Shown here piece after piece: positions 1,881-62,805 of a stretch of DNA of 64,000 nucleotides. A program made the position numbers and the translations under genes. The notes under the pieces were generated by a model. It saw only the letters and a program-made list of their open reading frames with translations. It was not told the DNA's origin and made no database searches. Each line of letters starts with the position of its first letter. Positions within the stretch are counted from its first letter, which is position 1. Source of the DNA: Pseudoips prasinana (Eukaryota; Arthropoda; Insecta; Lepidoptera; Nolidae); contig OX621265.1 in the NCBI GenBank assembly GCA_951640165.1, positions 15,823,001 through 15,887,000 on the forward strand. The letters are read 5' to 3'.

Positions 1881-1889
1881 CCTACAGAA
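1881..1889 (+). CDS. Micro-exon 1 (9 nt, PTE)
   Basis: CCTACAGAA lies between the acceptor ccaatttcag and the donor gtaagt. It is the first exon I can support. A palindromic element (1636-1812) and LINE remnants lie upstream, so earlier exons are probably outside the window. Confidence 0.75.
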
Positions 1890-4800
1890 GTAAGTTATAG
1901 TAACATATAAACTAATATTATTACTTGTGTAAAATTTTATTAGTTTTTAGAATTTTAATTAGCTTTTACTTAAATCCCATAAGGGTGCCCGCAGGTATTA
2001 GTCGTTTAAATTAAGCTATTGGCCGGCGCCTTTTGCGCAAGCCAACTGCTCGTTGTTTTCAATTCTTTCATTTTATTATACGATTATTTAAGATTCGTCG
2101 ATCGGCAACGTGTCTTAAAGTTTTAAACATAAAAATTAATTTCCGCAATCGACCGACTAGATTGTTAATATGGTACTTGAAAGTTAGACACTGGTCCACT
2201 GTAATGCCGAGATACTTTACGCAGTCCGACCGTTCAAGTGAAGTACATGAACATTGCGAGCGCGCATGCCCGCAAGTATGGGCCGTAATGGCAAAAGTAG
2301 GCGAAGGCAAGAGGTCAAGTCTGTGGGCATACGTAATGTATGTAGTTTTGTTTACGTTTAGGGTTAGAGAGTTATATTGGAGCCATTCACTGACGCTGTT
2401 TACACCAGTCTGGGCAAAGCTGAAAACCTCATCCCAGCTGCCTCCATAGAAGGAAAGTGCTGTGTCATCGGCGAAAGTGACAATTTTTCCATTTAGTAGT
2501 TGGATCTGGCAGAGGTCATTAATATACATAAGAAACAACGTGGGTCCGATGATGCTCCCCTGCGGAACGCCATATTCAATTGGCAGCTCCTTACTAATTC
2601 TCTGACCAATCTTGACACTCTGTCCTCTGTTGGAGAGGTAATTTGTCATAAGTTTAAGGGGAGTACCCCTTATACCATAGTGTTCTAATTTTTTTATCAG
2701 CAGTGGAATAGAGACCGTGTCGAAAGCCTTTGCTAAATCTAGGAAGACCGTTAGACATTTTTGTTTTTTGTCTATATTTGCAACGATCGAGTGTAAGAGA
2801 TCGTGTACTGCGTCACTGGTGGACTTGCCGCGACGAAAACCAAACTGATTGGTCGAGAGGATGTTGTTATTCTCTAAAAATGTAACCAGTCGGTTATTTA
2901 TAAGGCGCTCTAATATCTTAGATAATGTAGGCAGAATGGAGATTGGTCGAAAGTTTTCGACACGGTCTCTCTCGCCACTCTTATGAATGGGTCTAATAAG
3001 TGCAACTTTAAATGCTGAAGGAAATATACCTGTTGTGAATGAAAGGTTGCATATATGTGTGATGGGAAAGCTGAGTATGTTTTGGTACCTTTTAATGATT
3101 TTGCTAGAGATTTGATCGATACCTGTGGTAGACTTATCTTTTAATCCCTGAATAGTACGAAGTACCTCTTCCACGTCAATAGGTAGTAAAACAAGTGAAT
3201 TAAGAGGCGATGGACTGATGAAGTTGGATTGGAGTGAATTTGATTGGACGGGCATAGTAATCTGCTCAGCAAGTTTACTCCCAATCGTAGCAAAATATTC
3301 ATTGACGTCATTAATGCTCCTGTCTGGATTACCATTAGATATGAGGCAGGCAGAATGGTCTGTTTTTTTGTCTGTGCCGTTTATTTCCTTGACAATCTCC
3401 CACAACCGTTTTCCATCGTTCTTAGCCTTTTCGATCTCATTTTTCTCATAATTGCGTTTTGCTCTTTTTAATAGATTAGCACAAAAATTCCGATAGCGCC
3501 TGTATGTAACCCTAGCTACCTCATTTGTGGGGTCACTTTTTACTTTTTTGTATAATCTGTCTCTATTTTTCATGACGCGCAATAAGCCCTCAGATACCCA
3601 TGGTTTAATTATTCTTTTTCTGTTGGAAATTTTCACCACACTTGAGTTGTTTTTTATAGCTGATGATAGGGAGGATACAAGCAGATCAGTTGCGATATCA
3701 GGATCACTGCAGTCGCTAATGGAATGGAAGTTTATGTTTCTAACAGTTTCGTCTAGGCCGGGATAGTCAATTTTGTTCGTAGTTAGTTTGGAATACTTTC
3801 GGGGACTAGAGGTACTAAAGCAATAATAATAATTTAATCCAAAATAAATTCCAAAATAGCTTAGTAACTTGCTATTTATTATTTATTTAAGAATTTAATA
3901 AAAATATATGTGACGAAACAGACCGCACGGACGGACTAATTCAAAATATTTGTGTTGCTTTAATAACTGTAATGAACTATGTTTATGTATCGCATTGTGA
4001 GCGTGACAATTACAAGTGTATGTTAATACCCAAGTGCTGAATAAATTTAATTATTTCATTTTGTTTGCTTTTAGTCTCCGGTAAGAATTTTATATAAATT
4101 TTCTTCAGTGTCCTAACTAAAGAGTATTGAAAACAAATCTGTTTAATGTGAAGACACTATACACATATGCTCGCTGAAGCCTATCTTTCTGTGTTGCTTA
4201 ATGACTGTTGTATAATGATTAAAACCGAGACTGCCTCGTTGGTCAAGTGACAGCGTATTCACCCGCAGAAAAGGAGGTCCTGCGTTTAAATCGTGGGTCT
4301 GGCGAAAAGTGATTTTGGTACTTAACTATAAAAAGATAAATTTCTCAGCAACAGCCCGAAGTCTGGGAGTTGGCGGTATTATACCCCTGTACCTCGGAGA
4401 GCACGTAAAGCCATCGGTCTTGTACCTAACCTCTTTTCGGTCGTGTCGCTAGTCGTCCCGTCGGATCATGAGAATGATGGAATAGAAAGTGCTCCTGTGT
4501 TTGCCTACACACTTGAGCACTATAATATGTCCCGGGTAGTCATTGAGAATGGCCGCCGTGATCGAAATTCTGCTAGGAGGATATTGTTATTATTATTTTA
4601 TTTTTCTTTATATAACAGATTACTTATTACTGAAAATGAATTTATCTATTTCAGCCACCAGTAAGTTTCAATCCTAAAAATAAAAAAGACACCAATTATT
4701 TTCTTTAACTTGCTTTTTAACATATTTTTTTTGTTGTGATATAGAACGTGGTAAGTATTAATATTATTTTTATTAAATACTAGCTGTGCCCGCGACTTCG

Positions 4801-7800
4801 TCCGCGCGTTAATTAGTTTATTTAGTTTTTTTAGTAAAATAAAAACTTTTTCTAAAATAAAAGTAGCCTAAGTTACTCCTTATTACATCAGCTACCTGCC
4901 AATAAAAGTCCCGTCAAAATCGGTCCAGCCATTTCAGAGATTAGCCGGAACAAACAGACAGACAGACAGACAAAAATTGTAAAAAATGTTATTTTGGTGT
5001 ATGTACCGTATGTATATTCATATTTATGTAGTAAAAACCGGCTATTTCAATATTACAAACAGACACTCCAATTTTATTTATTTGTATATATTTAAAAGGA
5101 CTAGGTACCACACATGCCAGTGGAATGACAGCCAGTTTCTACGACTGCCATCAATAAGCCACTGATATAAGACGTAGAAAGCCACGGTTCATTATTTCGG
5201 CTTCAGAATGTGTAGAACTGTCACGCTTCACCCACCGGCCATGTTTGCGGGTAGTTTGCGTGGCATTGTCACCATAGCAACCAAACATGCTGCCGGAATG
5301 CTCGGTGATTATTCCACAGGCATATTCAAATAAAAAATATTCTAAATTCAAAGAATCCATGAAACGGTTACTTTAATATGCAATCGTCATTTGTTTACCC
5401 TACCGTGCAGTGCATGACGTGGCAGTTACTGAGAAACACTGCCAAAAACTCAGTAGGAATCCTTCTTTCTGATTAATTTCATATGACTTAACTTAGAGTG
5501 ACTTCCAATCTACTAGCGACTTAATAGAGAATCCGAGCCTTTTCTCATTAGAATAATAAGAAATTTTATAATTTGCAGAGCAAGAATGCCCGGTGGTACT
5601 TCCACCGGCATACTCAAATTCTAAATTCAATTAATCCTTGAAACGGTTACGTTTGTATGCAATCGTCATTTGTTTACCCTACCGTGCAGTGCACGACGTG
5701 GCGACGTTATTGAGAAACACTGCCAAAAACTCATTAGGAATCTTTTTTAAAACAACCTTTTGTTGAAGATTAATTGCATAGGTATGAGTTAATATAGAGT
5801 GACCTTTAAGCTATTACAGACTTCTTAGCGAACTCTAGAATAGAATAGAACTTTTTTATTCGAGTCGGTCGAGATCAATTCATTTTTTAGTTTCTCGTGG
5901 ATCTTATTCCCGGTGGGGAAGAAAATTTCAGGAGTGGCGAACAAGTAGTATAATTGCAAGTTAGCTAGACATAATTAATTAAACGTATCAGTACATATTT
6001 AGAACTGTGTTATCTAAGCACCGTTCTCTATATCTACCTAGAATAATATCACATTTATTATCACTGTTTTAATTAAAATTTTATTTATTAGGTTACAGTA
6101 AGTATTAATGTATTTTCTTAGCCTTCCAAGAGATGTTTTAGTTCTTGTGACTTTGAATGAAGTCTTTAGCCTTTTCGAAGTCAGACAGTCCTTCTGAATG
6201 CCACTTGGAACGGTTCCACCTTTTCCATCCTTTATAATGTCATTAGTTTATTGATTAAATTCGGGGTTTCCGATTAACAATTTTAGTTCCGTCAACAGAG
6301 CCTCTAGCACGAGTCCTGCAGTTTACTTACTCGATCACACGTACAGTTTCCTCCCATACATTGAGCACCAGCGCCTCTCGCGGAAACTATTAAGAACTAA
6401 AACTCTGGTGCTCAATGTATGGGACGAAACTGTACGTGTGATCGAGTAAGTAAACTGCAGGAACTCGTGCTAGAGGCACAGAACTCACTATAGTCCAACA
6501 GCTTACAGCACAGTTATGAAATATCACCAGCTTCTCGGCCTCTTTATAAACACATTGTGTTTATTTTAATTAATTAATATTAACTAATTAAGTACGTTAA
6601 GGAGAGTGCCCTGATTCCCAAGATACAAGTTTACTTAGTTTGGGAATCAGGAACTACAACTTTTTAAATTATTTGTTTTGTGTGAAAATAAACAATTTTT
6701 AACTTAACTTTAATAAATATTATATTGTATTTTTTAAACGGATAATAACTCAGTTTGTTTTATTATTTTAGGATAACAACGTAAGATTTTTTAAACTATT
6801 ATTTATCAATTAGTACTTAATAAGTTCTATTTTTGAATATTTACTTAGGTATCAATAGACTGTATTATTATTCTTGGCATATTTTATTGTATTGAATTTT
6901 ATTTCATATAATTTTTAACTATTTTTATAAATTATGATAATTTCCGTTCTGTCTATAACTTTAATTTGAGGCAGGGTATTTTCGCCCTCTAATTTGTAAT
7001 AATGCTGATAAATTCCGCTTACTTAACTTTGATTTAGATTTAAGATTAAATTTACTTTAGATTTAACTTAGATAGAAGAACTTAGATAGAAGAACTTAAT
7101 ATAGATTTAAGATTTTTAGCTTGACAAAGAATTTGATTTAAATTCGATCTAACATAATATTTTTCTTTTCATGCTATAATTCCGGTTTCATCAATGGTAT
7201 GTGACTTTTTTGAGAAATTTAATTAACATAATAATACTTGAGTATAGTTTATTTATTTTAAATTATTAATTTACAGATAGGGCGTAAGTATCATCAATCA
7301 TATAAATATAGTATCTTAATAGTGATTATAATAAAACTTAAATATGAAATGTCCAGATTTAACGAGTTTTCTGATAAATCTCATTGATATTGCTTTATTA
7401 TTTTGGGAGGTACGCTTAAACAATTGTTTTTAAAATCCTATTAAAGAAAACAGTTCTTGCAATAAAAATAAAGATTTTCAGAAATCGATCAAATAATTTT
7501 AATAAAATTAATTGGAGTTGAGACATTTCTGGGAAGTAGATTTGCTTAAGCCTCATGTACGGCAAACGATTGTTTTCAAGAGTCGTGAGCAAAATAAGCG
7601 AAACTCAGTCGCCAAGTTCTTAAATATTAATGGATTTTTTTATTTTAGGAGCCAGTAAGTAATACTTTTTATTCTAGAATTAAGTCCTAATAAATTAATA
7701 AAACAAAAATGATAACAATAATTTAGTCATGGAGGCTAATTTCGAAGTGGACTATTGTTATGACGGGGAAATAATTATAGTGTACGAGTGTGTGCCAACG

Positions 7801-10800
7801 TAAATGCACTCTCTATACTCTTATATACGTGATCCAGTGGGAGTGACAAATCAAAATTGCCAGTTAGAGGTTATTTGCATGCTCTACATGTATGATTTCA
7901 AGACAGACTCGTGATATTAGAGTTGTTTAAATATTAGGTCATTAATTTATCATAAAAAATCTGCTTAATTTACGGGGTCCATATTGGCTCACCTAAATTT
8001 CTTTACACAAAATTGTTCTACCTAATGATTTGTAATCCGAATGATCACTCTTCCTAAAATATTTCATCCTAAAGTTTTCGTTCATACTATTTGTACTGCT
8101 ATCGGCGATGTTCATAACACTCATGTTTCCGAAAATTGTAATGAACAATATCATTAATGTAAATAATTATGTTTAAATTTCTACTATTTTGTTATCATAA
8201 CGCTTTTATCCCTAAACATAATTACCCTAATATTTTCAGAAATAAATATTTAACTAGTGTAATAAAAAATATTTGGGTCGGAGATGATAGTATCTACCGC
8301 TCGGCGGTCGCTGCCGCGGCACGCTCGCTACGCTAACTCACCTTCGCGCGCTAAATGGTCGCGGTTCTAACCCAAGCGCGTCAAGTCCTAGCGGGTGTAC
8401 TACCGGTTGATCTTGAAGTTCAAAGACGAGCAGCAATGTATTATTCTACGCGCGATAATTTAGAAAATGATTTCTTATCATTACGCAACCGTGCGAAAAT
8501 AACCAGGCTATTTATTCCAATAGCTGACTTAAATAACGAACTACTAAATGAATGGCAATGTAGATGGAATACGTCAACCAAGGGTCGCCATCTGCACCAG
8601 TTCTTTCCGGACGTACGCGAACGGTTAAATAAAACTTGGCCAATCATAGACCATTGTGTTGCACAATTTCTTACCGGACACGGCAATTTTAAAAGTAAAT
8701 TGTATAGTTTCAAATTAGTATCTTCACCAATCTGTCTGTGCTCAACATCCAGTAACGAATATGAACAAACTGCTCACCACATCCTGTGGGAGTGTGATCT
8801 CTGGCAAAATCAGCGTGATATTATGTTAAACAGCTTGCAACCAATATCTGGAGTAGTTTATTATACGGATCTTGTAGCAACAAGGAACAACTTCCGTGCG
8901 TTTAAGCGTTTTTGCCATACCTACTATTGGAATCAAATATAACAGCTCACTTAGGACCCTTAAATTGATCCTCGGTGCTTTTGCAGCTGGCTTCTCTAGT
9001 TGCAAATCTCTCATTTTATGAGGCTATAGCCTCTTTACATCATTCTGTCTCCCGCTTTGCTCTGGAGGGAGGTGGAACTATTTATTTTCTAACTCCTCCT
9101 TTTTTCTGTTTCTGATTAAATTTGTTGCGGGATCCAAGACAGTTAAAGCGATTCCCCGGGACATGCCTGAGCTTCACCGCTCAGTGTCATTTCATTGTGT
9201 GCCACTGTTGATCCTGGCTTACAGGAGTTGCAGTGGTGGGTAAGAGGGAGGGACTAGTCCCGTCTACAATAAAAAAATAAAAAAAAAGGTTCTAACCCAA
9301 CCTAAGCCAAATTATTGAATTATTTCATAAAAGTACAAAAATAGATATGACTTTGAATAATAGTGTAAAAGATGGTTCTGTTGAGTAAATATAGGAACAA
9401 ATAAAAGTATAATAGATGTTTATTGCTACTGACATTATGAAGTTGAATGCTTCGGAATTATGAACATTAGAGACAGTGTATTTAGGAATTGTGATTGTTA
9501 GGATGAAAAATGTTAGGAAGAACATTTTCGGATTTCCAATTATCGGAGTTGAAAAGTTAGATGAACTTTGGCGCACCCAAATTTTCGACTACTGTAACTA
9601 AGCTATAGGATCGATACCTTCCTCCGCATCGTCCAGAGTAAAAGTGCCCAGAAGGCCATACTATTAGTTTTTATTCATTATAAGCAAATTAATATTTAAA
9701 ATTAATCTGAGTTTTATTTTTGCAATAGAGACTCTTCAGTTAAATATTTACTATATTGAACTAAAAAGTCTCTACTAAAAGGCATTTTAATTTTGTGCTT
9801 AAATCTAACCTATTTTAATTGATTTTCTCAGCTTTCCGTAAGTATTACTCAATATTTATATTTGATACTTAACGTTTATTTTCAAATAATATTTTCATCG
9901 TAAATTATTATTAGTATTTCATAATTCGAATTTCTTTTTTTTTTCAGACTTTGGTAAGTTTATTACTCAAATCGGTGACTATAGCAGATTGAATTTGGCC
10001 ATAATTTTATTTCTTGTTTTTTGATACAAATGTTTACGTCTATTTTTACAGATAGAGGTAAATATACCAATATACCTATTTAAAACGAGTCTATTTTCTT
10101 TTGGATTTCTTTTTAACTATTATCGTTTACAGCCTATTTATATTTAGTGACTTATGTTGTATGTGACTTATAAAACTTACTGTGTTACTTATAAAACACC
10201 AACAACCTCGCAGGACAAGATAGCTAACACCATAAGCAACAACTTTTGTTCTACGAGTTCGGACATAACTCAATACATATATAGAGTTACTTGTAAAACA
10301 CCAACAACCTCGAAGGAAAAGATAGCTAACACCATAAGCAACAACTTTTGTTCTACTAGTTCGGACATAACTCAATACATATATAGAGTTACTTGTAAAA
10401 CACCAACTACCTCGCAGGACTAGATAGCTAACACCATAAGCAACAACTTTTGTTCTACAAGTTCAGACATAACTCAATACATATATAGAGTTACTTGTAA
10501 AACACCAACTACCTCGCAGGACAAGATAGCTAACACCATAAGCAACAACTTTTGTTCTACGAGTTCAGACATCTTAAAACATATATAGGGTTACTTGTAA
10601 AACACCAACAACCTCGCAGGACAAGATAGCTAACACCATAAGCAACAACTTTTGTTCTACGAGTTCAGACATCTTAAAACATATATAGGGTTACTTGTAA
10701 AACACCAACAACCTCGCAGGACAAGATAGCTAACACCATAAGCAACAACTTTTGTTCTACAACTTTTGATAATTTGTTAGATTTTATTTTCGTACTACTA

Positions 10801-22800: not shown

Positions 22801-25800
22801 AATAATTATTGTCAACATACTATAACAATTTTAGAACTATTGATTCCGTCTCAAAATGTTTAAAATTATTGCCAATAGTAAGTATAGTGATTATAGATTT
22901 TACTCAAATTATTAAAAATATTTTCTTTTTTATCTCTTTAGCCCGCTACCGTAAGTCTGATTAAATATAATATTTATTGTTGTACATAATATAATAAATC
23001 GTTGTAGAATATTTATATTATAATATATATATTTTTTAAATTGATATATACTTTAAATTATATACGCTAACGAAGAATATTTTGTTAAGCTAAAGTGTAA
23101 AATATGAAATTACATTGATACTATAACCTACAATCAACTATTGCTTCGAGTCACTAATTATTGTTCTATTTTTATTTTTTAGAAAGTAAGTATAACATCT
23201 ATAATTTTCTGCTTATAATATACATTTTTTACTACCATTAATTATCTGAAAAACGTCCACTACTGGACCAAGGATTCCCTAAAAGATCACAATAGGATTA
23301 TATCCAACAATAAGTAGGGATTTGCCATAATCGCAATAGTAGGAGAGCTGGGCGCTGGCACGCATTTTTGGGTAGGTATTTGAGGCAAGCTGAAAACTTG
23401 TCCTATAACTCTTCAGACACACCCCAACACGGAACTGCAGACCTGGCAGGCGGGTAGCGGATCTAAACCAACCTCAAAATTTTTGATTTTTTTTTGTTTT
23501 AGCCATATAATGTATTTGAAGCAAGCTGAAATTTTGATATGTTGTAGTTTAATGTTTATACAATACAAAAAAAGACAGGTGATTCTGTCGGGTCTTTAGC
23601 ACTGCCAGGCGTGTGCAAAAAATCGAAAAAATGTATTTGAGGCAACTTGAAATTTTGACAGAATGTTATTTATGTATTGTATAAACATTAAACTACAACA
23701 TATCAAAATTTCAGCTTGCCTCAAATACATTTTTTGGATAAAAAAAATTTAAAAATTTAGGGGTTGGTTTAGACCCGCTACCCGCCAGCCAGGTCTGCAG
23801 TTCCGTGTTGGGGTGTGCCTGAAGAGCTATAGGACAAGTTTTCAGCTTGCGTCAAATACCTACCCAAAAATGCGTGCCAGCTCTTGGACTACAACGCTTG
23901 ACAGACGGGTTGGTGATCGAAGTATGACGGTCACAGTACACAGAGAGACGCTGCTACCCGTTCTCTAGTATAATATTCCCTCCCGATAACTCCTATGGGA
24001 TGAGGTGGTGTGGTCACACAATCCAAAGCCAGCTTTTAATAGTGCCACATATAATAGTGAACAACAGGCAATTGGGGCAGGCCTTATAAATTGTATAAAT
24101 ATAAAAATGTTTACGCATTTGACGGTCACCCTAGCCTAGTTGGTAGTGCTCCTGCCTACGAAGCTGGTGGTCCTGGGTTCGAATCCCGGTAAGTGCAAAT
24201 ATTTGTATGATGAGCACGAATATTTGTTTCTGAGTCATGGATGTTTTCTATGTATTTAAGTATTTATCTATCTATATAAGTATGTATATCGTCGCCTGGT
24301 ATCCATAGTACAAGCTTTGCTTAGTTTGGGGCTAGGATGATATGTGTGAAATTGTCCCTAAATATTATTATAATATTATTATTTAATTCATAATTATTTT
24401 ATTCTCAGCCAAATGTAAGTAAAATTATATTTTCATAAGTCATTTTAAGTCTTGATTTCCCGTTTATTGCCTCGGGTCACAAGCTTATTTACACTCTGTG
24501 TAACACATAATACATAGACCCAAAATTCGGCAGGCAGCTGTCTCGCTCTCCCACTTGAGTATGTTAAGGGATGTGAAATTATTGTACACACATTGCAAAA
24601 ATGTACCAATCCAAACGATACAAGAAAACTTTTTGCGTTGTAGCATGGTGCGGGTGACAGTTGCTTATTTGACGTTGACATCTATAAGTACCACATTACT
24701 AGGGATGTGCAATACATTTTTATTGCTAACGATACTCGCAGCATAAATCTAATAAGTTCTCTATGATAATAAAAAGGGACATTATGTCTGATTGGGATCG
24801 TGACATCCATATTGACAATATAATAGATTCATCATTAATAATATCCGTCACAGATTCTGATGATGAATTAAGTGATAATTCAGAGTCAGGATCTGATACG
24901 AGTTCAGACTAATTAAATGCATTTTTTACCTTGCCCTAATGTTCTGTTGTATAATTATAGGCAATATTGCATTTTAACAATAAAACATTAACTATGCACA
25001 AAATACGTTTTTTATTATACAAAAATATCGACTACCCATCGTAGCAGTCCATCCTATCACTAAATACGTCTATGACGTTACGTTATACGCATAACGCTTT
25101 GCTTATTTTTTCATTCTATTTAATTTAATTTGTAGAGTTGAACATTCTGGTTGCATTTAATTCAATTTACTACAGTTATTCATGATTTAATATGTAACAA
25201 ATGTGGTACAGCTGAGATACTAAGACATAATTTGTAAATCGCTGCGCCTTTCAAGAGTGAAACGAAATGTCACTGAACCTGTCACCCGCAGCATGCTATA
25301 ACGCAAATAGTATAGATTTTGTATTTTTAGTTTTTATCCCCTATTTTTATATAGTCATCACAAATCATATTAAAATGAAATGTATGTAAATAGTGGGAGC
25401 CACTATAGCCACTATACATAGTTTTGCAGCCATATAACCGTGGCTATACATAAATTTCTATGAGATAATAATATATATTTTTTACGCTATCGAATTGGGT
25501 TGTGCACCTGATTTGAAAAAGTGGTAAAGATACTTTATACGGATTTTAAATTTACATTATTGAAATTTTCTGCTGCATTAGTCAGTGGTAAAATTTTCTC
25601 GATTTGCTACAGATATAATATAATTGAGAATCTTGAAGGATATTCTATAGAAAGGCTATGCAATTTTTTTTAGATCCTTTAAATATGTTCTATATGAGGT
25701 TCGCTCTCCTTTCTTTTATTTTTGGCAAAATAAGTGGGAAAGCTTGTGCTTGCCACCTGCAAAAAGTGTCCGCGGGTGGGTATGTCGGATTTACACCGAA

Positions 25801-26043
25801 TAAAACTACCGGCCCGTGGTCTTCTCTTAGCGCCTGATGGGAGGAGCCCCGGGAACGCGGGTATTCTGCTCCGCTGCCCTCCTTAGCCCTAACAACAGTA
25901 TCTTATATAAGGTCCGTCATAATAATAATAATACCTTAATATAGACAGAACCATTGACAATTAGTAGTGAAAATATTAGACTTAAACTAGATAATTAAAC
26001 ATAATCTCTTGACAATAACTTGATACGAGCTAGCTAAATAACA

Positions 26044-26074
<31 letters not shown>

Positions 26075-28927
26075 TTTAGGCCCGCAAACTGGCCGTTACG
26101 GCAAAACATACATTATTGCATTATACATATGAATAAATGACAGCCAAACAGCCTTCTAAGTGCGAACACAGCATGCTCACGAATATCTCACTTTCACAAA
26201 CATTTACAAACTTAATTTTAATAATAACAAACTTATAATAATTGAATGACAATAATAATTGAATCTATATTACTACTACATGTTAAATTAATTTATAATT
26301 TAGTGTGAAGAAATGTTTTGATAGTATTGACAGATACACTGAACGGATCGAGTTCCTGATAAATTTCGTTAAGGGTGGAGCACATTCGATAAAATGTTTT
26401 AATGCTTTAATAAAATAACTTGTATAAATGTTTTCATACAATGTGTACCTAAATATCTGTTACTAGAAATAATAATGTATACAACTATATTACTACAAAC
26501 ATGTTTTGACTATTAACAAGCGCTTCTTTAAATTCTACGTGAATATTTTTTTTAATTTTTTAATTTATTTATTTTTATATATCAACATTTATAATTTCAG
26601 TGTGTATGCTGTTCACGAGCACCATTGACGTGGTTTAAATTGTTTGGAAATCTACACTTCAAAAATATTAAGGTACGACGAAGTAATTAATCGTATTGAA
26701 TTTATTTAATCATAAGCAACAACTTTTGCTCTACGAGTTCGGACATAACTCAATACATGAATAAAAATTATTTTAAAAGTTTTTGTTGTACTCTCCTGAC
26801 ATTTGTAGATCTGTGTCATTTATAAAAGAAACGACGACGCGCGAACCACGCTTAGCGCTCCCACGTGTGTGCGTCTTTGCTATGCTCGTAGAGTAATAAA
26901 CGTTCAAGCGGGAAATTAAATTAATACTAATATTTTTGTATGAAAATGAATTCTAACAAATTATTATTATTATTAATTTATTCAGAGATAACAATTTTAC
27001 AATCGTATTTGAATATTAACGAGACTTACATACTAGACACAAAAAATAAAAATAAAAGGAATTTATATAATACCAATAAAATATACAATAATCAATACAG
27101 CTACGACGAAACATAATTAACAAAGTCACCTTAAAATTTGAATTCATCTACTGAGTAAAAGCACCCTTCCAGCAAAAGCTTTTTTAAATATGTTAGGACT
27201 ATCGATAGTTTTAAGCTCAACCGGCAGGGAGTTAAATAATTTTACCGCTTGATATCTACAGCCATGCATCGCGACATTTAACCTTGGTTGCAAAGGAACC
27301 TCCAAATCTTTCCTTCTAGTATTAAGTCTTAGTTCTCTTTGTGCTTGCGTTTCATACTTACACTGATGTTGAATGACATCCATGAGTACAACAAAAATGT
27401 AGAGACTAGGAACTTATTAAAAGTTGTAGAAGAAAAGTTGTAGCTTAAAGTGATAACTATGTAGTATTGTGAGGATGTTGGTGTTTTAGAAGAAATGTAT
27501 AGTAAGGGTTTGCAATAAACATTTTACTGAAATTATCTCTCAATTTAAGAAAAGTTGTCATTGTAAAGTATATATTACTTAAAAAATCGCATTGCGCAAT
27601 TATACAATTTCCAACCACTAATGAACCATTCAACCAATCGTCATTTAAAAAAAAAGTTTTATCTAAAACTGTAATTATACAAGTCTAGTCTGCGTAAAAT
27701 TTTCTGCCACAATAAAAATGTATAAAGATTAATATATTTTGTTTCTTACCTAATTTTCAGGTCGTAAGTATACCAATTAAATAATACATAGGAATATTCG
27801 ATCTGCAAAACCATTCATAACGCCTAGCCGAATGGCAAGCGGTTCAGTTCATTGACATTTGTAGTTTCGGATTGACATATCGACAGTGAAGCTGCAATAA
27901 CGCGTAATTAAAAATGTTTGTTATGCACTAATAATTAATAATATCCTTAGACATTATTCACACACGGCCATCTGATTGCAAACTAAGCAGACCTTGTACT
28001 ATGGAAACCAGATAACTGATATGCTACATATACTATTTTTCTTTTGTAAATACATAATTATATAGATAATATAGATAATTTACACCCAGACTCAGGACAA
28101 ACAGACATGTTCATGCACACAAATATTTGTCCCGGGTGGGACTCAAACCCACGACCTGCGGCGTGTAAGGCAGCGTATTTACCAAACAACCACACCAACA
28201 GACCCGTTAAATTTTCGAATTATTGTTAATTAAAAAATATAAACCACTAAGGACCATCTAAGGACTGACCGCGAGCCCATTTGCTTAACCTTCGTGAATC
28301 GTTTGTTAGTGAACCTGCCTTCTGATCCAAAGATTGCAGGTTTGATCCTCGCACATGACAAATATTTGTGTTAATGAACAAGCGCCTGTTGGCGTGGTTG
28401 GCAAATGCTTGCCTTTCACGCCGGAGGCCGTGGGTTCGATTCCTACTCAGGACAGATATTTGTGTGCATGAACATGTCTGTTTGTCTGAGTCTGGGTGTA
28501 ATTATTTATATAGGTACATAAGTATGTATTTACAATATCCATAATATATCAGTTATCGGGTTTCCATAGTACAAGCTCTGCTTAGTGTCAGTGCTACATA
28601 TCAAGCAATATATATACACACGTTTCCAATATAAGCTGCTCTCTCGTCGTATGAAAGTCCTAAACAACGCGAGAGCAGCTTATACTGTAAATGTATAGCT
28701 TGATATGTAGCCGTGTGTACAAGCTTTGCTTAGTTAGGGCTAGAAAGCGTTGTTTAATATGCCCCGGATATTTATTTTATTAATATTTTCCTTTTTTGCA
28801 GCCCAAAAAGCACAAATACACCACACTAGATACTCGAACATCGACCTTGTGCCCACCGTGCGACTGCTCAAATTGCGATGACAACAACGTAGACACAGTA
28901 ACTACGCATCCAAAGATGGTTTGCTAA
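1881..28927 (+). CDS. Micro-exon gene: 26 exons of 3-9 nt plus a 72-nt and a terminal 126-nt exon (5' partial)
   Basis: Seen: 28 exons on one strand, each preceded by a pyrimidine-rich tract and AG. The 27 internal ones are followed by GTAAGT or a close variant (GTAAGA, GTAAAT, GTAATG, GTATGT, GTACGA). Internal lengths are 3, 6, 9 or 72 nt, so every exon is symmetric. In phase 0 all are open. The other phases meet stops: ATAGAG and ATAACG in one, ACTAGA, TATGAG and GATAACAAC in the other. Joined exons give 118 codons and TAA. Residues by exon: PTE, SP, PP, NV, VT, DNN, G, EP, LS, TL, IE, KE, YE, LP, DG, KV, HLF, ME, QW, IT, KF, TR, PAT, K, PN, a 24-residue exon starting CVCC, V, and a 41-residue Cys-rich C terminus. 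Introns run from 84 nt (4661-4744) to about 5.1 kb (17849-22941). No start codon or signal peptide is visible, so 5' exons are missing. Family and function are unknown. Inference: symmetric exons would allow skipping without frame loss. Confidence 0.88.
2033..3815 (-). mobile_element. 5'-truncated non-LTR retrotransposon with reverse transcriptase ORF
   Basis: The ORF at 2068-3639 (523 codons) reads further upstream to about 3812. It carries RT palm motifs FLDLAKAFDTV near residue 305, GVPQGSIIGP near 360 and FADDT near 389, with the catalytic aspartates present. No endonuclease domain is seen, so the copy is 5'-truncated. The clade is probably Jockey or CR1-like, judged only from the motifs. 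It lies antisense in the first intron of the micro-exon gene. The RT frame is intact, so it is fairly young. Confidence 0.8.
3905..4055 (+). repeat. Dispersed repeat ending in TGCTGAATAAATTTA
   Basis: It shares cagaccgcacgga near its start and gtgctgaataaa at its end with 39245-39425 (+) and, inverted, with 20155-20290. It looks like the 3' tail of a retroposon. Confidence 0.5.
4075..4080 (+). CDS. Micro-exon 2 (6 nt, SP)
   Basis: TCTCCG follows tttgcttttag and precedes gtaaga. The intron before it carries a 5'-truncated LINE on the opposite strand. Confidence 0.75.
4225..4590 (+). mobile_element. tRNA-derived SINE (family with GCCTCGTTGGTC head)
   Basis: The head gcctcgttggtcaagtgacagcg resembles a tRNA A box and is followed by a degenerate B box (gtttaaatcgtgg). 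The body runs through agcccgaagtctgggagttgg to gtcccgtcggatcatgag. Inverted copies lie at 35990-36350 and 59400-59775. Confidence 0.7.
4655..4660 (+). CDS. Micro-exon 3 (6 nt, PP)
   Basis: CCACCA lies between tatttcag and gtaagt. The next intron is only 84 nt, close to the usual minimum in insects. Confidence 0.8.
4745..4750 (+). CDS. Micro-exon 4 (6 nt, NV)
   Basis: AACGTG follows a long T-rich tract ending in atatag and precedes gtaagt. Confidence 0.75.
4782..5000 (+). repeat. Dispersed repeat with CTAGCTGTGCCCGCG start
   Basis: It starts actagctgtgcccgcgacttcg and includes agacagacagaca and aaaaattgt. Related copies start at 18331, 54487 and 61850 (+), and an inverted one lies at about 54280-54478. 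The family is common in Lepidoptera. Confidence 0.6.
5330..5765. repeat. Duplicated 140-bp segment
   Basis: The segment with aaacggttac, tatgcaatcgtcatttgt and accctaccgtgcagtgca occurs at about 5335-5465 and again at 5615-5750, with minor differences. No coding potential is seen. Confidence 0.6.
6092..6097 (+). CDS. Micro-exon 5 (6 nt, VT)
   Basis: GTTACA lies between ttatttattag and gtaagt. Confidence 0.75.
6298..6478. mobile_element. MITE-like foldback element
   Basis: Arms of about 70 bp are near-perfect inverse copies, from gcctctagcacgagt at the left to actcgtgctagaggc at the right, around a loop of about 35 bp. No ORF is present. Confidence 0.8.
6772..6780 (+). CDS. Micro-exon 6 (9 nt, DNN)
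   Basis: GATAACAAC lies between ttattttag and gtaaga. In phase 2 it would contain TAA, so it helps fix phase 0. Confidence 0.75.
7281..7283 (+). CDS. Micro-exon 7 (3 nt, G), acceptor uncertain
   Basis: The sequence ttacagatagggcgtaagt allows two acceptors. Using atag gives a 3-nt exon GGC and keeps the frame. Using acag gives a 7-nt exon that would break it. I chose the in-frame option, so this exon is not independent evidence for the frame. Confidence 0.5.
7649..7654 (+). CDS. Micro-exon 8 (6 nt, EP)
   Basis: GAGCCA lies between ttttttattttag and gtaagt. Confidence 0.8.
8375..9288 (+). mobile_element. 5'-truncated LINE insertion with target-site duplication
   Basis: It is flanked by a 13-bp direct repeat, GGTTCTAACCCAA, at 8362-8374 and 9289-9301, and ends in an A-rich tail. 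The ORF to 8942 gives a C-terminal domain with WPIIDHCVAQFLTGHGNFKS and the cysteine motif CLCSTSSNEYEQTAHHILWEC, typical of the region after RNase H in R1 or related non-LTR elements. The apparent start codon at 8355 lies outside the element, so it is not a real gene start. It sits in the intron before micro-exon 9. Confidence 0.8.
9832..9837 (+). CDS. Micro-exon 9 (6 nt, LS)
   Basis: CTTTCC lies between gattttctcag and gtaagt. The preceding intron carries the LINE insertion at 8375-9288. Confidence 0.75.
9948..9953 (+). CDS. Micro-exon 10 (6 nt, TL)
   Basis: ACTTTG follows an uninterrupted pyrimidine tract ending in ttttcag and precedes gtaagt. The flanking introns are 110 and 98 nt. Confidence 0.8.
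10052..10057 (+). CDS. Micro-exon 11 (6 nt, IE)
   Basis: ATAGAG lies between ctatttttacag and gtaaat. In phase 1 it would hold TAG. Confidence 0.75.
10193..10765 (+). repeat. Tandem array, about six copies of a 100-102 bp unit
   Basis: The unit starts AAAACACCAACAACCTCGC at 10193, 10295, 10397, 10499, 10599 and 10699. The spacing is 102, 102, 102, 100 and 100 bp. An inverted single copy lies at about 11045-11130, and a partial piece lies at 26707-26760. The array is one arm of a foldback element that has expanded in tandem. Confidence 0.85.
11045..11130 (-). repeat. Inverted single copy of the 102-bp unit
   Basis: Inverse of the unit at 10193-10765, from ttgagtaatgtgcgaactcgtag to gttgttggtgttttacaagtaa. 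It marks the opposite arm of the parent foldback element. Confidence 0.7.
11160..11280. mobile_element. MITE-like foldback element
   Basis: The ends ctacatatcaagctatat and atatagcttgataatatg are inverse copies, with internal arms cagtataagctgatc and cagcttataatgg. A second member lies at 28590-28720. Confidence 0.7.
11444..11449 (+). CDS. Micro-exon 12 (6 nt, KE)
   Basis: AAAGAA lies between ctctatttttag (with one extra T) and gtaagt. The intron before it contains the 102-bp tandem array at 10193-10765. Confidence 0.75.
11480..11760. mobile_element. Short relative of the SWIM-domain transposon
   Basis: It matches the ends of the element at 56030-57200 (aaaactttgtaccccttttt, ttggaacagttaaagttcat, gtgtcaaaactgagaa) but lacks the ORF. 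It looks like an internal-deletion derivative. Confidence 0.5.
12010..12480 (+). repeat. LINE 3'-end remnants
   Basis: Two tails are present: acggaaggctcataaggccgaa to gagccgtaaaactgaa near 12030-12080, similar to 29120-29170, and aggaccgcccattgta to gtacaataaag near 12400-12465, similar to 38690-38765. Micro-exon 13 lies between them. Confidence 0.5.
12331..12336 (+). CDS. Micro-exon 13 (6 nt, YE)
   Basis: TATGAG lies between ttgatttcag and gtaatg. In phase 2 it would hold TGA. Confidence 0.7.
12550..12555 (+). CDS. Micro-exon 14 (6 nt, LP)
   Basis: CTGCCA lies between ttatttgtag and gtaagt. Confidence 0.75.
12606..12854 (+). mobile_element. Short LINE 3' insertion with 11-bp target duplication
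   Basis: ATACAATGCGT flanks the insert at 12595-12605 and 12855-12865. The end, gtccagcagtggactt then tgatgat, is the tail seen at 17250-17310, 46120-46175 and 60830-60860. The 70-codon ORF at 12600 begins in the target duplication and is not a host gene. Confidence 0.75.
13234..13239 (+). CDS. Micro-exon 15 (6 nt, DG)
   Basis: GACGGC lies between cacttctgtttag and gtaagt. Confidence 0.75.
13491..13496 (+). CDS. Micro-exon 16 (6 nt, KV)
   Basis: AAAGTC lies between ggtaatttttcag and gtaagt. The next intron is 86 nt. Confidence 0.8.
13583..13591 (+). CDS. Micro-exon 17 (9 nt, HLF)
   Basis: CATTTATTC lies between gtttattgcag and gtaagt. Confidence 0.8.
13766..13771 (+). CDS. Micro-exon 18 (6 nt, ME)
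   Basis: ATGGAG lies between catgcttgctgcag and gtaaat. Confidence 0.75.
14111..14116 (+). CDS. Micro-exon 19 (6 nt, QW)
   Basis: CAATGG lies between gtttaaatttcag and gtatgt. The next intron is 100 nt. Confidence 0.7.
14217..14222 (+). CDS. Micro-exon 20 (6 nt, IT)
   Basis: ATAACG lies between ttttatattatag and gtaaga. In phase 1 it would hold TAA. Confidence 0.7.
14400..14857 (+). repeat. Three tandem copies of a 159-bp MITE-like unit
   Basis: Copies start at 14409, 14568 and 14727, exactly 159 bp apart and nearly identical. Each unit begins accatctgtttaatatata and, in the first two copies, ends tatatatyaaacagatggt, so each has its own inverted termini. The third copy lacks its right end. 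Confidence 0.85.
14900..15650 (+). pseudogene. LINE C-terminal remnant split by a MITE
   Basis: Pieces at about 14920-14985 (reads MRLTRNFLPRTTTLWNQL) and 15465-15600 (reads VELFPIRYDMATFKKRAYS then TCDSSGVASVHG) together match the usual C terminus of lepidopteran LINE polymerases. The insert between them is annotated separately. The tail resembles the family's 3' end. Confidence 0.7.
14988..15466. mobile_element. DNA-transposon-like insertion inside a LINE remnant
   Basis: The ends agtagtgttagaaatgac and, inverted, agtagagatgtaaaatgac form imperfect terminal repeats. The interior has many GGTCA and TGACC motifs at both ends. No ORF is recognised. Confidence 0.55.
15690..15935 (+). mobile_element. 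tRNA-derived SINE, 5'-truncated
   Basis: It starts at the B-box region (cccacccaggacagatattt) and ends gcttagtttgggatcagatggccgtgtgt. Full copies are at 28380-28600 and 33960-34200. Confidence 0.7.
16170..16885 (+). repeat. Dispersed repeat (TCGCACTTGGCCGGTTTTT family) with nested LINE tail
   Basis: It starts gggttccgtagccaaatgg and ends gtccgactcgcacttggccgg. A LINE 3' end with (TACA)n and gggtaggcagagacaacgg lies inside at 16688-16812. The ORF at 16147-16557 on the other strand is a chance frame. Confidence 0.65.
17025..17310 (+). repeat. LINE 3' end with (TGATGA)n tail
   Basis: It includes gtgggcaggccccctacaag, gcgcaagaccggcaattgtgg and ccagcagtggacgtctt, which encode the polymerase C terminus (RWTDDLVRVAGN-like) before a gatgatgatg tail. 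Similar tails lie at 45995-46180 and 60775-60870. Confidence 0.65.
17347..17352 (+). CDS. Micro-exon 21 (6 nt, KF)
   Basis: AAATTT lies between tatttatttacag and gtaagt. It sits about 40 bp after a LINE 3' end that has invaded the intron. Confidence 0.7.
17515..17690. mobile_element. Foldback element with GACGTTTCGACCAAG arms
   Basis: Arms of about 60 bp, from aaccttattgttattttcc to ccacgatcac and back, are inverse copies. The motif gaaacgtcggg also occurs at 45027-45040. Confidence 0.75.
17843..17848 (+). CDS. Micro-exon 22 (6 nt, TR)
   Basis: ACTAGA lies between aatttctttacag and gtaagt. In phase 2 it would hold TAG. Confidence 0.75.
17928..18170 (+). repeat. Dispersed repeat starting GGGCAGTGGTTACCCTAGTG
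   Basis: A close copy lies at 46985-47225, and an inverted fragment at about 19985-20130. The shared text includes gttgttcaagccgccca and ggaccggtgag-like ends. No coding function is seen. Confidence 0.6.
18331..18665 (+). repeat. Dispersed repeat (CTAGCTGTGCCC family)
   Basis: It starts ctagctgtgcccaacgg and ends cctacgattttattatatg. It is close to the copies at 54487-54800 and 61850-62170. Confidence 0.65.
18945..19085. mobile_element. MITE-like foldback element
   Basis: The left end gtacagacgccagcac and right end gtgctggcgtctgtac are inverse copies, as are the inner arms ctaccccaacctgtcaaat and gacagattggggtag. Confidence 0.7.
19104..19899. mobile_element. DNA transposon relic with terminal inverted repeats
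   Basis: The left end agggtctgtttcacaatgt matches the inverse of the right end acattgtaaaacagaccct. It spans about 800 bp in the large intron before micro-exon 23. A 47-codon ORF lies inside on the minus strand. Confidence 0.7.
19495..19638 (-). CDS. Small ORF inside the 19104-19899 transposon (47 aa)
   Basis: It starts MVIFDIIENEIDEFFDRV and ends NKQNAFVDINI. Acidic at the N terminus and basic in the middle, it resembles the start of a transposase that lost its catalytic part, but I cannot name the family. It is probably not a host gene. Confidence 0.4.
   Translation of the reverse strand: MVIFDIIENEIDEFFDRVTEPRINPTPLRKTPPKHRNKQNAFVDINI
20155..20600 (-). repeat. Retroposon-tail repeats
   Basis: 20155-20290 is an inverted copy of the tail at 39245-39425. 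20350-20600 holds another repeat with aacgagcagttggctagcgcag, whose inverse (gcgcaagccaactgctcg) lies at 2036-2053 beside the LINE. No ORF is seen. Confidence 0.45.
20690..22500 (+). mobile_element. DNA transposon with long imperfect inverted arms and a spliced ORF
   Basis: Left text gccgcttaaccatgg recurs inverted near 22475-22488 (catggttaagcggc). The inner arms gtagaacaaactagctggac (20860) and gtccagctagcttgttctac (22049) are also inverse copies. The element carries a TATA-like tatataaag at 21001, a two-exon ORF and a polyadenylation-type sequence near 21920. No catalytic transposase is recognised, so it may encode an accessory protein of a two-gene element. Exact ends and target duplication are not resolved. 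Confidence 0.6.
21105..21835 (+). pseudogene. Spliced transposon ORF with frameshift, acidic tail
   Basis: Exon 1 (21105-21123, MDCVHK plus one nt) has the donor gtaagt. The acceptor cag at 21377-21379 opens exon 2 at 21380, and the join is in frame through VFTVSK to MDFFEEWLKHPK. The frame shifts by one base near 21555-21590, where a short GCAGCTGTGCAA motif is repeated, and continues as AVQRIATNRDLLNMLL. It ends MDDSSDDSDDE at 21835. The acidic end is like that of the small ORF at 24784-24912. It is probably a transposon-encoded protein of unknown role. Confidence 0.55.
22730..22885 (+). repeat. LINE 3'-end remnant
   Basis: The text gatcttatagccatata and gattccgtctcaaaatg matches the tail at 49610-49685 plus 52615-52660, which belongs to the split LINE at 48024-52700. 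Confidence 0.55.
22942..22950 (+). CDS. Micro-exon 23 (9 nt, PAT)
   Basis: CCCGCTACC lies between cttttttatctctttag and gtaagt, one of the clearest acceptors in the gene. Confidence 0.8.
23183..23185 (+). CDS. Micro-exon 24 (3 nt, K)
   Basis: AAA lies between ctatttttattttttag and gtaagt. If real it is a single-codon exon. A ratchet-like site is the alternative. Confidence 0.6.
23330..23895. mobile_element. Large foldback element
   Basis: Arms of about 210 bp (23350-23575 and 23675-23890) are inverse copies, for example cgcatttttgggtaggtat with atacctacccaaaaatgcg and ctgcagacctggc with gccaggtctgcag. The centre is about 100 bp. No ORF is seen. Confidence 0.8.
24121..24375 (+). mobile_element. 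tRNA-derived SINE (CCTAGCCTAGTTGGTAGTGC head)
   Basis: The head shows an A box (tagttggtagtgc) and B box (gggttcgaatcccgg), then tatgtatatcgtcgcctgg and caagctttgcttagtttgg. Copies are at 38068-38305, 42810-43065 and 62550-62800. The body shares its end with the other SINE family here. Confidence 0.8.
24409..24414 (+). CDS. Micro-exon 25 (6 nt, PN)
   Basis: CCAAAT lies between attattttattctcag and gtaagt. A SINE ends just upstream. Confidence 0.75.
24632..25308 (+). mobile_element. DNA transposon derivative with about 28-bp inverted ends
   Basis: The ends tgcgttgtagcatggtg with cgggtgacag and, inverted, tgcgttatagcatgctg with cgggtgacag match. A 42-codon acidic ORF lies inside. Confidence 0.7.
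24784..24912 (+). CDS. Small acidic ORF in a transposon (42 aa)
   Basis: It runs from MSDWDRDIHIDN to GSDTSSD and is rich in Asp and Ser. The composition matches the C-terminal tail of the ORF in the 20690-22500 element. It is likely a leftover of a longer transposon protein. Confidence 0.4.
   Translation: MSDWDRDIHIDNIIDSSLIISVTDSDDELSDNSESGSDTSSD
25780..26570 (+). repeat. LINE 3' tail copies with a long poly-T tract
   Basis: The text ggtccgtcataataataa to tgacaataacttgatac, and the final ctattaacaagcgcttctt then tctacgtgaata, match tails at 29357-29895, 52720-53230 and 55265-55670. It is interrupted at 26048 by a run of about 30 T and foreign sequence up to about 26390, as expected for an antisense poly(A) retroposon. 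Confidence 0.55.
26601..26672 (+). CDS. 72-nt exon of the micro-exon gene (24 aa, starts CVCC)
   Basis: It follows ataatttcag and precedes gtacga. It reads 24 sense codons in phase 0, with an early CVCC cluster, then TWFKLFGN and the end FKNIK. The length is a multiple of three, as for the small exons, and the frame joins the terminal exon directly. Confidence 0.75.
26960..27390 (-). pseudogene. LINE C-terminal remnant
   Basis: The 79-codon frame at 27144-27383 reads RELRLNTRRKDLEVPLQ then YQAVKLFNSLPVELK, the common end of lepidopteran non-LTR polymerases. Related text occurs at 49311-49535 ([21 protein letters not shown]). It lies in the intron before the 3-nt exon at 27761 and is flanked by pieces of the CAACAACTTTTG element. 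Confidence 0.65.
27761..27763 (+). CDS. Micro-exon 27 (3 nt, V)
   Basis: GTC lies between cctaattttcag and gtaagt. It can be a one-codon exon or a recursive splice point. Either way the frame to the last exon is kept. Confidence 0.6.
27950..28200 (-). mobile_element. tRNA-derived SINE, inverted
   Basis: It starts tacacacggccatctgatt-like and ends in an inverse B box (gggactcaaacccacgacc). It is the same family as 28380-28600. Confidence 0.7.
28380..28740 (+). mobile_element. tRNA-derived SINE interrupted by a foldback MITE
   Basis: The head gcgtggttggcaaatgc and B box gggttcgattcctactc lead into catgaacatgtctgtttg and end at tctgcttag. The foldback element of the 11160 family (28590-28720, ends gctacatatcaagc and gcttgatatgtagc) is inserted, and the SINE resumes at gctttgcttagttagg. 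The terminal exon of the micro-exon gene follows 60 bp later. Confidence 0.75.
28802..28927 (+). CDS. Terminal exon of the micro-exon gene (41 aa plus stop)
   Basis: The strong acceptor ttttccttttttgcag precedes 41 sense codons and TAA at 28925-28927. The peptide starts PKKHKYTTLDTRTST, has the dense cluster CPPCDCSNC, then DDNNVDTVTTHPKMVC. ATTAAA-type hexamers about 10 and 100 bp downstream could direct polyadenylation. The cysteines would suit metal binding or disulphides, but no family is recognised. It could also serve as the last exon of shorter isoforms. Confidence 0.8.
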   Translation, partial: PKKHKYTTLDTRTSTLCPPCDCSNCDDNNVDTVTTHPKMVC

Positions 28928-29109
28928 GTGGACTAAGGAGTTACTTTATTAAAAGAAGTTATCTTGTGTAATTTGAAAATTATATTAAGTAATTTAAAAC
29001 TTATTGACATTATTATTTTACTTTTTATTAAATACGGTCATCTACGCATAGTTCACCCATATCCATAGAAATACTGTCCAAAATATAATTTAAAACTTGA
29101 ATTTAGCAA

Positions 29110-38067: not shown

Positions 38068-38305
38068 GGTCACCGTAGCATTGTTGGTAGTGTTCCTGCC
38101 TACGAAGCTGGTGATCCTGGGTTCGAATCCCGGTAAGTGCAAATATTTGTATGATGAGCACGAATATTTGTTACTGAGTCATGGATGTTTTCTATGTATT
38201 TATCTATCTATATAAGTATGTATATCGTCGCCTGGTACCCAAAGTACAAGCTTTGCTTAGTTTGGGGCTAGGATGATCTGTGGCATTGTCCCTAGACATT
38301 ATTAT
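38068..38305 (+). mobile_element. tRNA-derived SINE
   Basis: B box gggttcgaatcccgg and end gctttgcttagtttggggc. Same family as 24121-24375. Confidence 0.75.
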
Positions 38306-43577: not shown

Positions 43578-43929
43578 TTAAAATCCTAAAACTCCACTAA
43601 ATAATGCCCAAATTAATTTTAAGCATAGCAACCCTAATATAGAACAGAAAAAGTAGTGGAGAAGCCTCAGTCTGTTTAATTTTTTAAGGCCCTGTGGGAT
43701 AGTCTCTACGGGGTCTTTTAATAAATATACTCTTACACCTCTAACGTAATTGCAGAAGTACTCATTCCAATCTATAGCACTTATGTCGAAGTCAAATAAC
43801 TTCTTGTCAGCAGGGCAGAGCTCGTTGAAAAGATTTTGTGTGTTGCTATTGTCAAATTTCCATTGCCTTGTGGAGAAGTACGCCATGACTTCGGAGAATT
43901 TCGTTATTTTTTTGTAAGCTTTTCTTAAC
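43578..43929 (-). CDS. Reductase last exon
   Basis: It opens after ccattcgcag and codes [26 protein letters not shown] and a hydrophobic C terminus ([18 protein letters not shown]) before TAA at 43578-43580. Confidence 0.92.
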
Positions 43930-62547: not shown

Positions 62548-62805
62548 AGTGTTTTACGGTCTCCATAGCCTAGTTGGTAGTGCTCCTGCCTACGAAGCTG
62601 GTGGTCCTGGGTTCGAATCCCGGTAAGTGCAAATATTTGTGTGATGAACACGATTATTTGTGAATAAATGAATTTTATTTATTTATTATTATTTGTTTCT
62701 GAGTCATGGATGTTTTCTATGTATATAAGTATTTATCTATCTATATAAGTATGTATATCGTCGCCTGCTAGGCTAGGATGATCTGTGTGACATTGTCCTC
62801 AGATA
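62548..62805 (+). mobile_element. tRNA-derived SINE with a small insertion
   Basis: Head tagcctagttggtagtgc, B box gggttcgaatcccgg. An AT-rich insert at about 62658-62695 interrupts it. It lies 48 bp upstream of a reductase exon acceptor (minus strand). Confidence 0.75.

Follow-up and report, generated by a model that had tools for sequence, protein, structure and literature searches.

Can a protein-coding gene be assembled mainly from exons of two codons each? The question is raised by a 64,000-nucleotide (nt) stretch of the genome of the moth Pseudoips prasinana (assembly GCA_951640165.1, contig OX621265.1, positions 15,823,001 to 15,887,000; hereafter the window, whose coordinates are used throughout). 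An earlier reading of its letters, the original prediction, had proposed a gene with at least 26 exons of 3-9 nt on the + strand between 1881 and 28927. No described gene with mostly 6-nt exons is known to us, and none came up in searches of the open-licence literature of PubMed Central (PMC), a source that leaves subscription journals largely uncovered. Our analysis strongly favors the reading that a gene for a predicted secreted protein has its 3' part in this region, that the 28 predicted exons there encode 118 residues alignable to a related protein, P0076, and that its introns are likely to be removed one by one in a ratchet-like manner.

The gene model is a single + strand chain of 28 exons, in agreement with the 28 AG-exon sites first counted and with their numbering, in which the exon at 13583 is number 17 and that at 28802 the last. 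Twenty-five micro-exons (1881 to 24409) are followed by a 72-nt exon (26601-26672), a 3-nt exon (27761), and a 126-nt terminal exon (28802-28927) that ends in a TAA stop. Together, the 26 micro-exons sum to 159 nt, or 53 codons, and most are indeed 6 nt long (19/26), the others being of 9 nt (4/26) or 3 nt (3/26). All 26 have a length that is a multiple of three (3n), so they are symmetrical; 3n length also served as a selection criterion for micro-exons. The 27 introns range from 84 to 5093 nt (median 574), with five at 84-110 nt, and every one of them is in phase 0. When the exons are joined, frame 0 is open over 118 codons up to the stop, and frames 1 and 2 are interrupted by 7 and 6 stops, respectively. 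By self-blastn (E 1e-8), all 28 exons fall outside sequence repeated within the window; the introns hold repeats and a reverse transcriptase open reading frame (ORF). This ORF (2068-3882, minus strand), located between the exons at 1881 and 4075, is probably part of a non-long-terminal-repeat (non-LTR) retrotransposon. Downstream of the stop codon, ATTAAA occurs at 28948, 29027, and 29160, copies that we take to be possible poly(A) signals. No strong site continues the chain in positions 1-1880, where weak sites at 320 and 1579 were omitted. A 3-nt candidate (ACC) at 20006 was dropped for its weak acceptor and has no matching residue in P0076.

We scored pairs of an AG acceptor and a donor 3, 6, or 9 nt further on in a splice-site scan with generic insect-like weights (approximate values, not trained on this DNA). 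The minus strand of 1-29000, both strands of 29001-64000, and 300 dinucleotide shuffles served as controls. At a summed score of at least 16, 19 pairs lie on the + strand of 1-29000, 13 of them 6 nt long, versus one on the minus strand of the same region, and none on either strand of 29001-64000. The shuffles averaged 0.12 such pairs and never exceeded 3, which puts the excess over them at about 150-fold. The minus strand and shuffled sequence are the controls that the original prediction had itself proposed, and it withstood both. At score 12, we counted 30 pairs on the + strand of 1-29000 versus 6 on its minus strand, 5 and 3 on the + and minus strands of 29001-64000, and a mean of 3.25 (maximum 9) in the shuffles. 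Other lengths up to 11 nt showed no clear excess (1 versus 0.44 expected at score 16; 11 versus 8.87 at score 12). Likewise, the + strand of 1-29000 carries 30 copies of GTAAGT, versus 8 on the minus strand and a mean of 9.15 (maximum 18) in the shuffles. As had been claimed, most of the + strand copies between 1.8 and 28 kb (20/29) sit 3, 6, or 9 nt past an AG. The run of sites on the + strand of 1-29000 is unequalled elsewhere in the window and far above chance. One might object that AT-rich DNA yields AG-N6-GTAAGT sites by itself and that the fitting ones were picked, and weak candidates are plentiful (87 pairs of 3, 6, or 9 nt on the + strand and 63 on the minus strand at score 8). Yet the excess at score 16, together with the recovery by the chain of a homologue that had not been used in its selection, refutes this explanation, to which we attach practically no credence.

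The chain was fixed before the homologue search. The + strand of 1-29000 has 45 candidates of length 3n and at most 12 nt, from which we selected 26 according to site strength, repeat context, and nesting; with the terminal exon, these 26 encode 94 residues. Searched bare against the protein database, this chain had no homologue among candidates of about 52-164 residues. Padded in length, it retrieved one protein among three candidates, P0076 (283 amino acids [aa]; E 7.2e-8). The first 25 exons (1881 to 24409) supply 52 residues that lie gapless on P0076 165-216, with 22/52 identical, including PAT, K, PN, and G. P0076 then has 24 residues that are absent from the 94-residue chain, followed by V and the match to the terminal exon. 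Because P0076 has 24 extra residues at this point, a further exon was found between 24409 and 27761, namely 26601-26672 (16/24 identical). The site at 26601 had originally been counted among the micro-exons, a count that we correct: it opens a 72-nt exon. The final alignment covers 118/118 residues without a gap, 57 of them identical (micro-exons before the 72-nt exon, 22/52; 72-nt exon, 16/24; V, 1/1; terminal exon, 18/41). A single open frame, 27/27 introns in phase 0, and this gapless match uphold the reading of the sites as a coding gene in which 6-nt exons predominate. Because P0076 carries 164 further residues on the 5' side, the gene very likely extends upstream of the window; the N-terminal part of P0076 gave nothing convincing when searched against the window (best E 3.9).

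The match was compared with controls. The 52 residues have an ungapped score of 93 against P0076, whereas no score above 42 was obtained in 20,000 permutations of exon order and none above 36 with 20,000 chains built from random minus-strand AG-N6-GT peptides. Even without PATKPN, the score of 59 was reached by 0/20,000 permutations. We also performed a free search, in which all candidates compete for a place in the highest-scoring ordered, gapless chain against P0076. Run on the 43 + strand candidates with a site score of 10 or higher, it recovered 24 exons out of 25 at a chain score of 115, versus a maximum of 86 (mean 76.5; 30 runs) for re-dealt peptides and 37 for the minus strand (22 candidates). 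This search read 26601 as a 3-nt exon and added a false site at 58500. At score 8, again 24 exons were recovered, along with 22 other sites (chain score 147 versus 77 for the minus strand).

P0076 comes from a contig of 1219 bp with the source tag lgn, which we take to denote assembled sequencing reads. Its ORF runs uninterrupted across the equivalents of the micro-exons, which suggests that it represents a spliced transcript, the alternative being an intronless genomic copy. Further searches placed the protein in no family. The PDB, searched by sequence with the chain, returned one chance match (E 0.82); no Pfam family scored above cut-off for the chain or for P0076, whose sub-threshold match (E 1.2) we regard as chance; and viral contigs gave 15 pattern matches and 0 relatives. 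The run IEKEYELPDG had looked actin-like; no actin was found among solved structures at E 1, the run is absent from P0076, and the idea was discarded.

How might such exons be spliced? Micro-exon donors are GTAAGT in 19/26 cases, GTAAGA in 3, GTAAAT in 2, and GTAATG and GTATGT in 1 each. Compared with the U1 consensus, the exonic positions -3, -2, and -1 match in 4, 8, and 8 of 26 exons, no significant excess over background (p 0.66, 0.64, and 0.06), whereas inside the intron +7 A (16/26, p 0.002) and +8 T (17/26, p 0.001) exceed it. At the acceptors, T occupies position -5 in 23/27 and -6 in 22/27 (72-nt exon left out), and in 26/28 exons the 30 nt upstream of the acceptor are free of any further AG. 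From these patterns, the splice signals appear to be almost wholly intronic, which would leave the exon letters free to code. The quality of the donors also bears on whether the gene is dead, having lost its 5' part or its expression and left the micro-exons as relics. The first intron does carry the reverse transcriptase ORF, other introns carry repeats, and the 5' end is beyond the window. But perfect donors in 19 of 26 micro-exons, 118 codons without a stop, and 57/118 residues kept with no insertion or deletion make a dead gene very unlikely.

We propose that exon definition would hardly be possible over 3-9 nt, since the usual exon-bridging complexes would not fit. For the same reason, each intron would be recognized by its own two ends, one by one. 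Recognition would draw on a very strong acceptor, with a T-rich tract and no nearby AG, and on a donor that pairs with U1 inside the intron (GTAAGTAT instead of CAG/GTAAGT, where the slash marks the exon-intron border). Each micro-exon would be joined to the growing upstream exon and would then present the next donor, such that every tiny exon would act as a ratchet point that leaves 1-3 codons behind.

The ratchet points described in Drosophila are zero-nt exons, with a cryptic exon absent from the mRNA (cited passages of PMC8605326). Their acceptor and strong donor stand side by side, a layout that suits stepwise removal and that our sites resemble in this respect only. The likeness of the acceptor-donor layout to juxtaposed Drosophila ratchet points in that source, and the size of some of the introns, might suggest that our sites serve as ratchet points or decoys in large introns and leave nothing in the mRNA. 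The spacing is 3, 6, or 9 nt rather than 0, though, and no zero-length site (YAG/GTRAGT) occurs on the + strand of 1-29000. Here, 3-9 nt would be retained, with counterpart residues in P0076. Nor would decoys explain the 3n lengths, the open frame, and the gapless match, and P0076 largely refutes this highly improbable explanation.

A less extreme alternative is that the micro-exons are mostly alternative and that the gene serves to produce protein variants, a role proposed for the micro-exon genes (MEGs) of schistosomes, some of whose diversity has been attributed to alternative splicing (PMC10526429, in part). The symmetry of all 26 micro-exons means that any skipping keeps the frame. On the other hand, P0076 has a gapless counterpart of every micro-exon, so at least one full-length form is likely, and the very strong sites favor constitutive use. 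We consider mostly alternative use unlikely, albeit an alternative of some weight.

Where did the exons come from? Intron insertion into an old exon would be expected to give all three phases. Under an assumed 50% share of phase 0, independent introns, and with the 3n selection set aside, the chance of 27/27 phase-0 introns is about 7e-9. By comparison, 3n exons added within a phase-0 intron would be flanked by phase 0 throughout, automatically. Because 27/27 introns are in phase 0, we infer that the exons were gained singly inside a phase-0 intron rather than by cutting up an old exon; the original wording, a gene "broken into" exons, probably has the direction wrong. If the P0076 gene has the same exons, the alignment suggests that the exon set predates the split of the two species. 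Duplicated flanks found no support as an exon source, as flank similarity consisted of overlaps between neighboring flanks or of matches elsewhere, read as dispersed repeats; decayed, ancient duplications are a possible source. More tentatively, and with rather less than even confidence, we speculate that the gene grows by splicing, through successive 6-nt captures from a phase-0 intron under a strict-order ratchet, maybe to at least 50 exons including those for the acidic N-terminal half. If true, a protein domain would have been written out of intron sequence, two residues per step.

Several observations weigh against parts of this account. First, the use of each exon is predicted from the DNA sequence and not from RNA of this species, no relative other than P0076 was found, and that P0076 is RNA is presumed. 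Second, 19 of the 45 3n candidates were excluded by judgement, at a stage when no homologue had yet been identified. The free search at score 10 prefers 15859, in a repeat, over 17347, and at score 12 it recovers only 15/25 exons plus 4 other sites, with 12331 just below the cut. Third, individual exons fit P0076 unevenly: SP (4075), EP (7649), KE (11444), and KF (17347) score below 0, and the weak-donor exons at 10052, 12331, and 13766 fit poorly or moderately (IE 2, YE -2, ME 4). For SP, EP, KE, YE, and KF, the gapless fit supports the length and not the letters. Fourth, two acceptors lie 4 nt apart at 7274-7283 (+ strand); the upstream one is stronger and gives a 7-nt, frame-shifting exon (7277-7283), and only the weaker one, at 7281, keeps the frame. 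Unless a truncating isoform exists, this second acceptor would have to be chosen accurately. Finally, the order of splicing and the origin of the exons are proposals, and for a 9-nt exon of potato the second intron is reported to be removed before the first (PMC4674806, in part), the reverse of the order proposed here.

The predicted product can be described from P0076. It starts with MKIFITFLFLWTVVA, which by eye is hydrophobic and signal-peptide-like, and its residues 1-164 form an acidic low-complexity region with 48 D/E, 11 K/R, and no Cys. The window-encoded part ends in a Cys-rich tail, in which STLCPPCDCSNC is identical in P0076. A single-sequence structure model of P0076 had a mean predicted local distance difference test score (pLDDT) of 42.7 with 0 residues at 70 or above, that is, no confident fold, and no fold search was made. 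The product is expected to be secreted and extracellular, disordered over most of its length, and fast-evolving, with Cys concentrated in its tail.

Several other micro-exon systems are known. Neuronal micro-exons regulated by SRRM proteins are included in neural tissue under a factor with an eMIC domain. Recognition of exons shorter than about 50 nt is considered difficult, and exons of 1-6 nt have been reported singly (PMC4674806, in part). Examples of single or paired micro-exons are Arabidopsis APC11 (1 nt), chicken cTNT (6 nt), Drosophila UGP (6 nt), and adjacent 5- and 12-nt exons in rice (PMC8042270 and PMC8831610, in part). Such cases show that exons of 1-6 nt can be spliced; they number one or two per case in these reports, whereas 25 follow one another here.

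The original prediction named schistosome micro-exon genes and aphid bicycle genes as the nearest parallels, and our analysis arrived at the same two. The exons of schistosome MEGs measure 6-81 bp (3-81 is also given), mostly 15 bp, with 10-20 short exons per gene, according to the cited passages of PMC10526429. Judged by these passages, the two share runs of tiny, mostly 3n exons, introns of about 0.1-5 kb, and a secreted product (predicted here from P0076). They differ in that 0/26 micro-exons here are 15 nt and none exceeds 9 nt, making this gene the more extreme by size. The comparison, between a flatworm and an insect, is one of exon layout, with no direct comparison of protein sequence. 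Aphid bicycle genes have a near-uniform internal exon phase of 2, CYC motifs, and about 17 exons on average, and megacycle has more than 100 micro-exons (PMC9168663, in part); a divergent member without cysteines exists (PMC13041983, in part). As far as these sources go, they share with our gene an insect host, many unusually small internal exons, a uniform phase, and a fast-evolving protein, but the phase is 2 there and 0 here. No CYC string occurs in P0076 or, by eye, in the 118 residues. Because the defining traits that were tested differ, the gene is filed with neither group, although both appear nearest to it in kind.

With 25 consecutive micro-exons and a gapless relative, the gene would be a natural limit test of intron definition and stepwise splicing. 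It would suggest that donors can function with almost no exonic contribution. Annotation is likely to overlook genes of this kind, so insects may have more of them. With phase 0 throughout, the origin of micro-exon genes becomes testable across related moth genomes.

Table 1. Exons of the chain and a downstream motif, with the basis for each (score <0, alignment score against P0076 below zero)
Feature	Position	Strand	Basis and remarks
Micro-exon 9 nt, PTE	1881..1889	+	Aligns with P0076 165-167
Micro-exon 6 nt, SP	4075..4080	+	Site scan and P0076 alignment; score <0
Micro-exon 6 nt, PP	4655..4660	+	Site scan and P0076 alignment
Micro-exon 6 nt, NV	4745..4750	+	Site scan and P0076 alignment
Micro-exon 6 nt, VT	6092..6097	+	Site scan and P0076 alignment
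Micro-exon 9 nt, DNN	6772..6780	+	Site scan and P0076 alignment
Micro-exon 3 nt, G (GGC)	7281..7283	+	G also in P0076; rival acceptor 4 nt upstream
Micro-exon 6 nt, EP	7649..7654	+	Site scan and P0076 alignment; score <0
Micro-exon 6 nt, LS	9832..9837	+	Site scan and P0076 alignment
Micro-exon 6 nt, TL	9948..9953	+	Site scan and P0076 alignment
Micro-exon 6 nt, IE	10052..10057	+	Weaker donor GTAAAT; P0076 alignment
Micro-exon 6 nt, KE	11444..11449	+	Site scan and P0076 alignment; score <0
Micro-exon 6 nt, YE	12331..12336	+	Weak donor GTAATG; P0076 alignment
Micro-exon 6 nt, LP	12550..12555	+	Site scan and P0076 alignment
Micro-exon 6 nt, DG	13234..13239	+	Site scan and P0076 alignment
Micro-exon 6 nt, KV	13491..13496	+	Site scan and P0076 alignment
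Micro-exon 9 nt, HLF	13583..13591	+	Site scan and P0076 alignment; exon 17 of the chain
Micro-exon 6 nt, ME	13766..13771	+	Weaker donor GTAAAT; P0076 alignment
Micro-exon 6 nt, QW	14111..14116	+	Donor GTATGT; P0076 alignment
Micro-exon 6 nt, IT	14217..14222	+	Site scan and P0076 alignment
Micro-exon 6 nt, KF	17347..17352	+	Site scan and P0076 alignment; sole exon swapped out in the free chain search at score 10
Micro-exon 6 nt, TR	17843..17848	+	Site scan and P0076 alignment
Micro-exon 9 nt, PAT	22942..22950	+	Same residues in P0076
Micro-exon 3 nt, K	23183..23185	+	Same residue in P0076
Micro-exon 6 nt, PN	24409..24414	+	Same residues in P0076
72-nt exon CVCCSRAPLTWFKLFGNLHFKNIK, donor GTACGA	26601..26672	+	16/24 identical to P0076 217-240; tblastn E 1.8e-8
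Micro-exon 3 nt, V	27761..27763	+	Same residue in P0076
Terminal exon, 41 codons and stop, with STLCPPCDCSNC	28802..28927	+	18/41 identical to P0076
ATTAAA, possible poly(A) signal	29027..29032	+	Motif; further copies at 28948 and 29160

The surroundings of the gene contain further coding sequence and repeats. A minus-strand ORF at 31628-33418 and a further tblastn match at 34661-34404 represent a gene convergent with the micro-exon gene and matched in two pieces. The ORF has 75 relatives, the best named match being 61% identical (Heliothis virescens), and two of their records, P0001 and P0014, name a Generative cell specific-1/HAP2 domain. Organism names accompany 39 of the 75 relatives, and we take all 39 genera to be Lepidoptera, which makes the window very likely moth DNA; among the named matches, this gene (31628-34661) is nearest to noctuids. 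Another minus-strand segment, 43578-43952, matches the Pfam family Sterile (male sterility protein), which corresponds to the C-terminal part of fatty acyl-CoA reductases. A 951-aa ORF with endonuclease and reverse transcriptase (49705-52560, minus strand) is probably a non-LTR retrotransposon. On the + strand, tRNA-like matches at 24132-24189, 38076-38133, and 62559-62631 have 3' ends with a common GGGTTCGAATCCCGGTAAGTGCAA; they are probably a tRNA-derived short interspersed element (SINE) that happens to contain GTAAGT. Lastly, the ORF listing reveals a tandem repeat at 59662-60246 (+ strand), with three copies of a 34-residue reading that are the same or nearly so.
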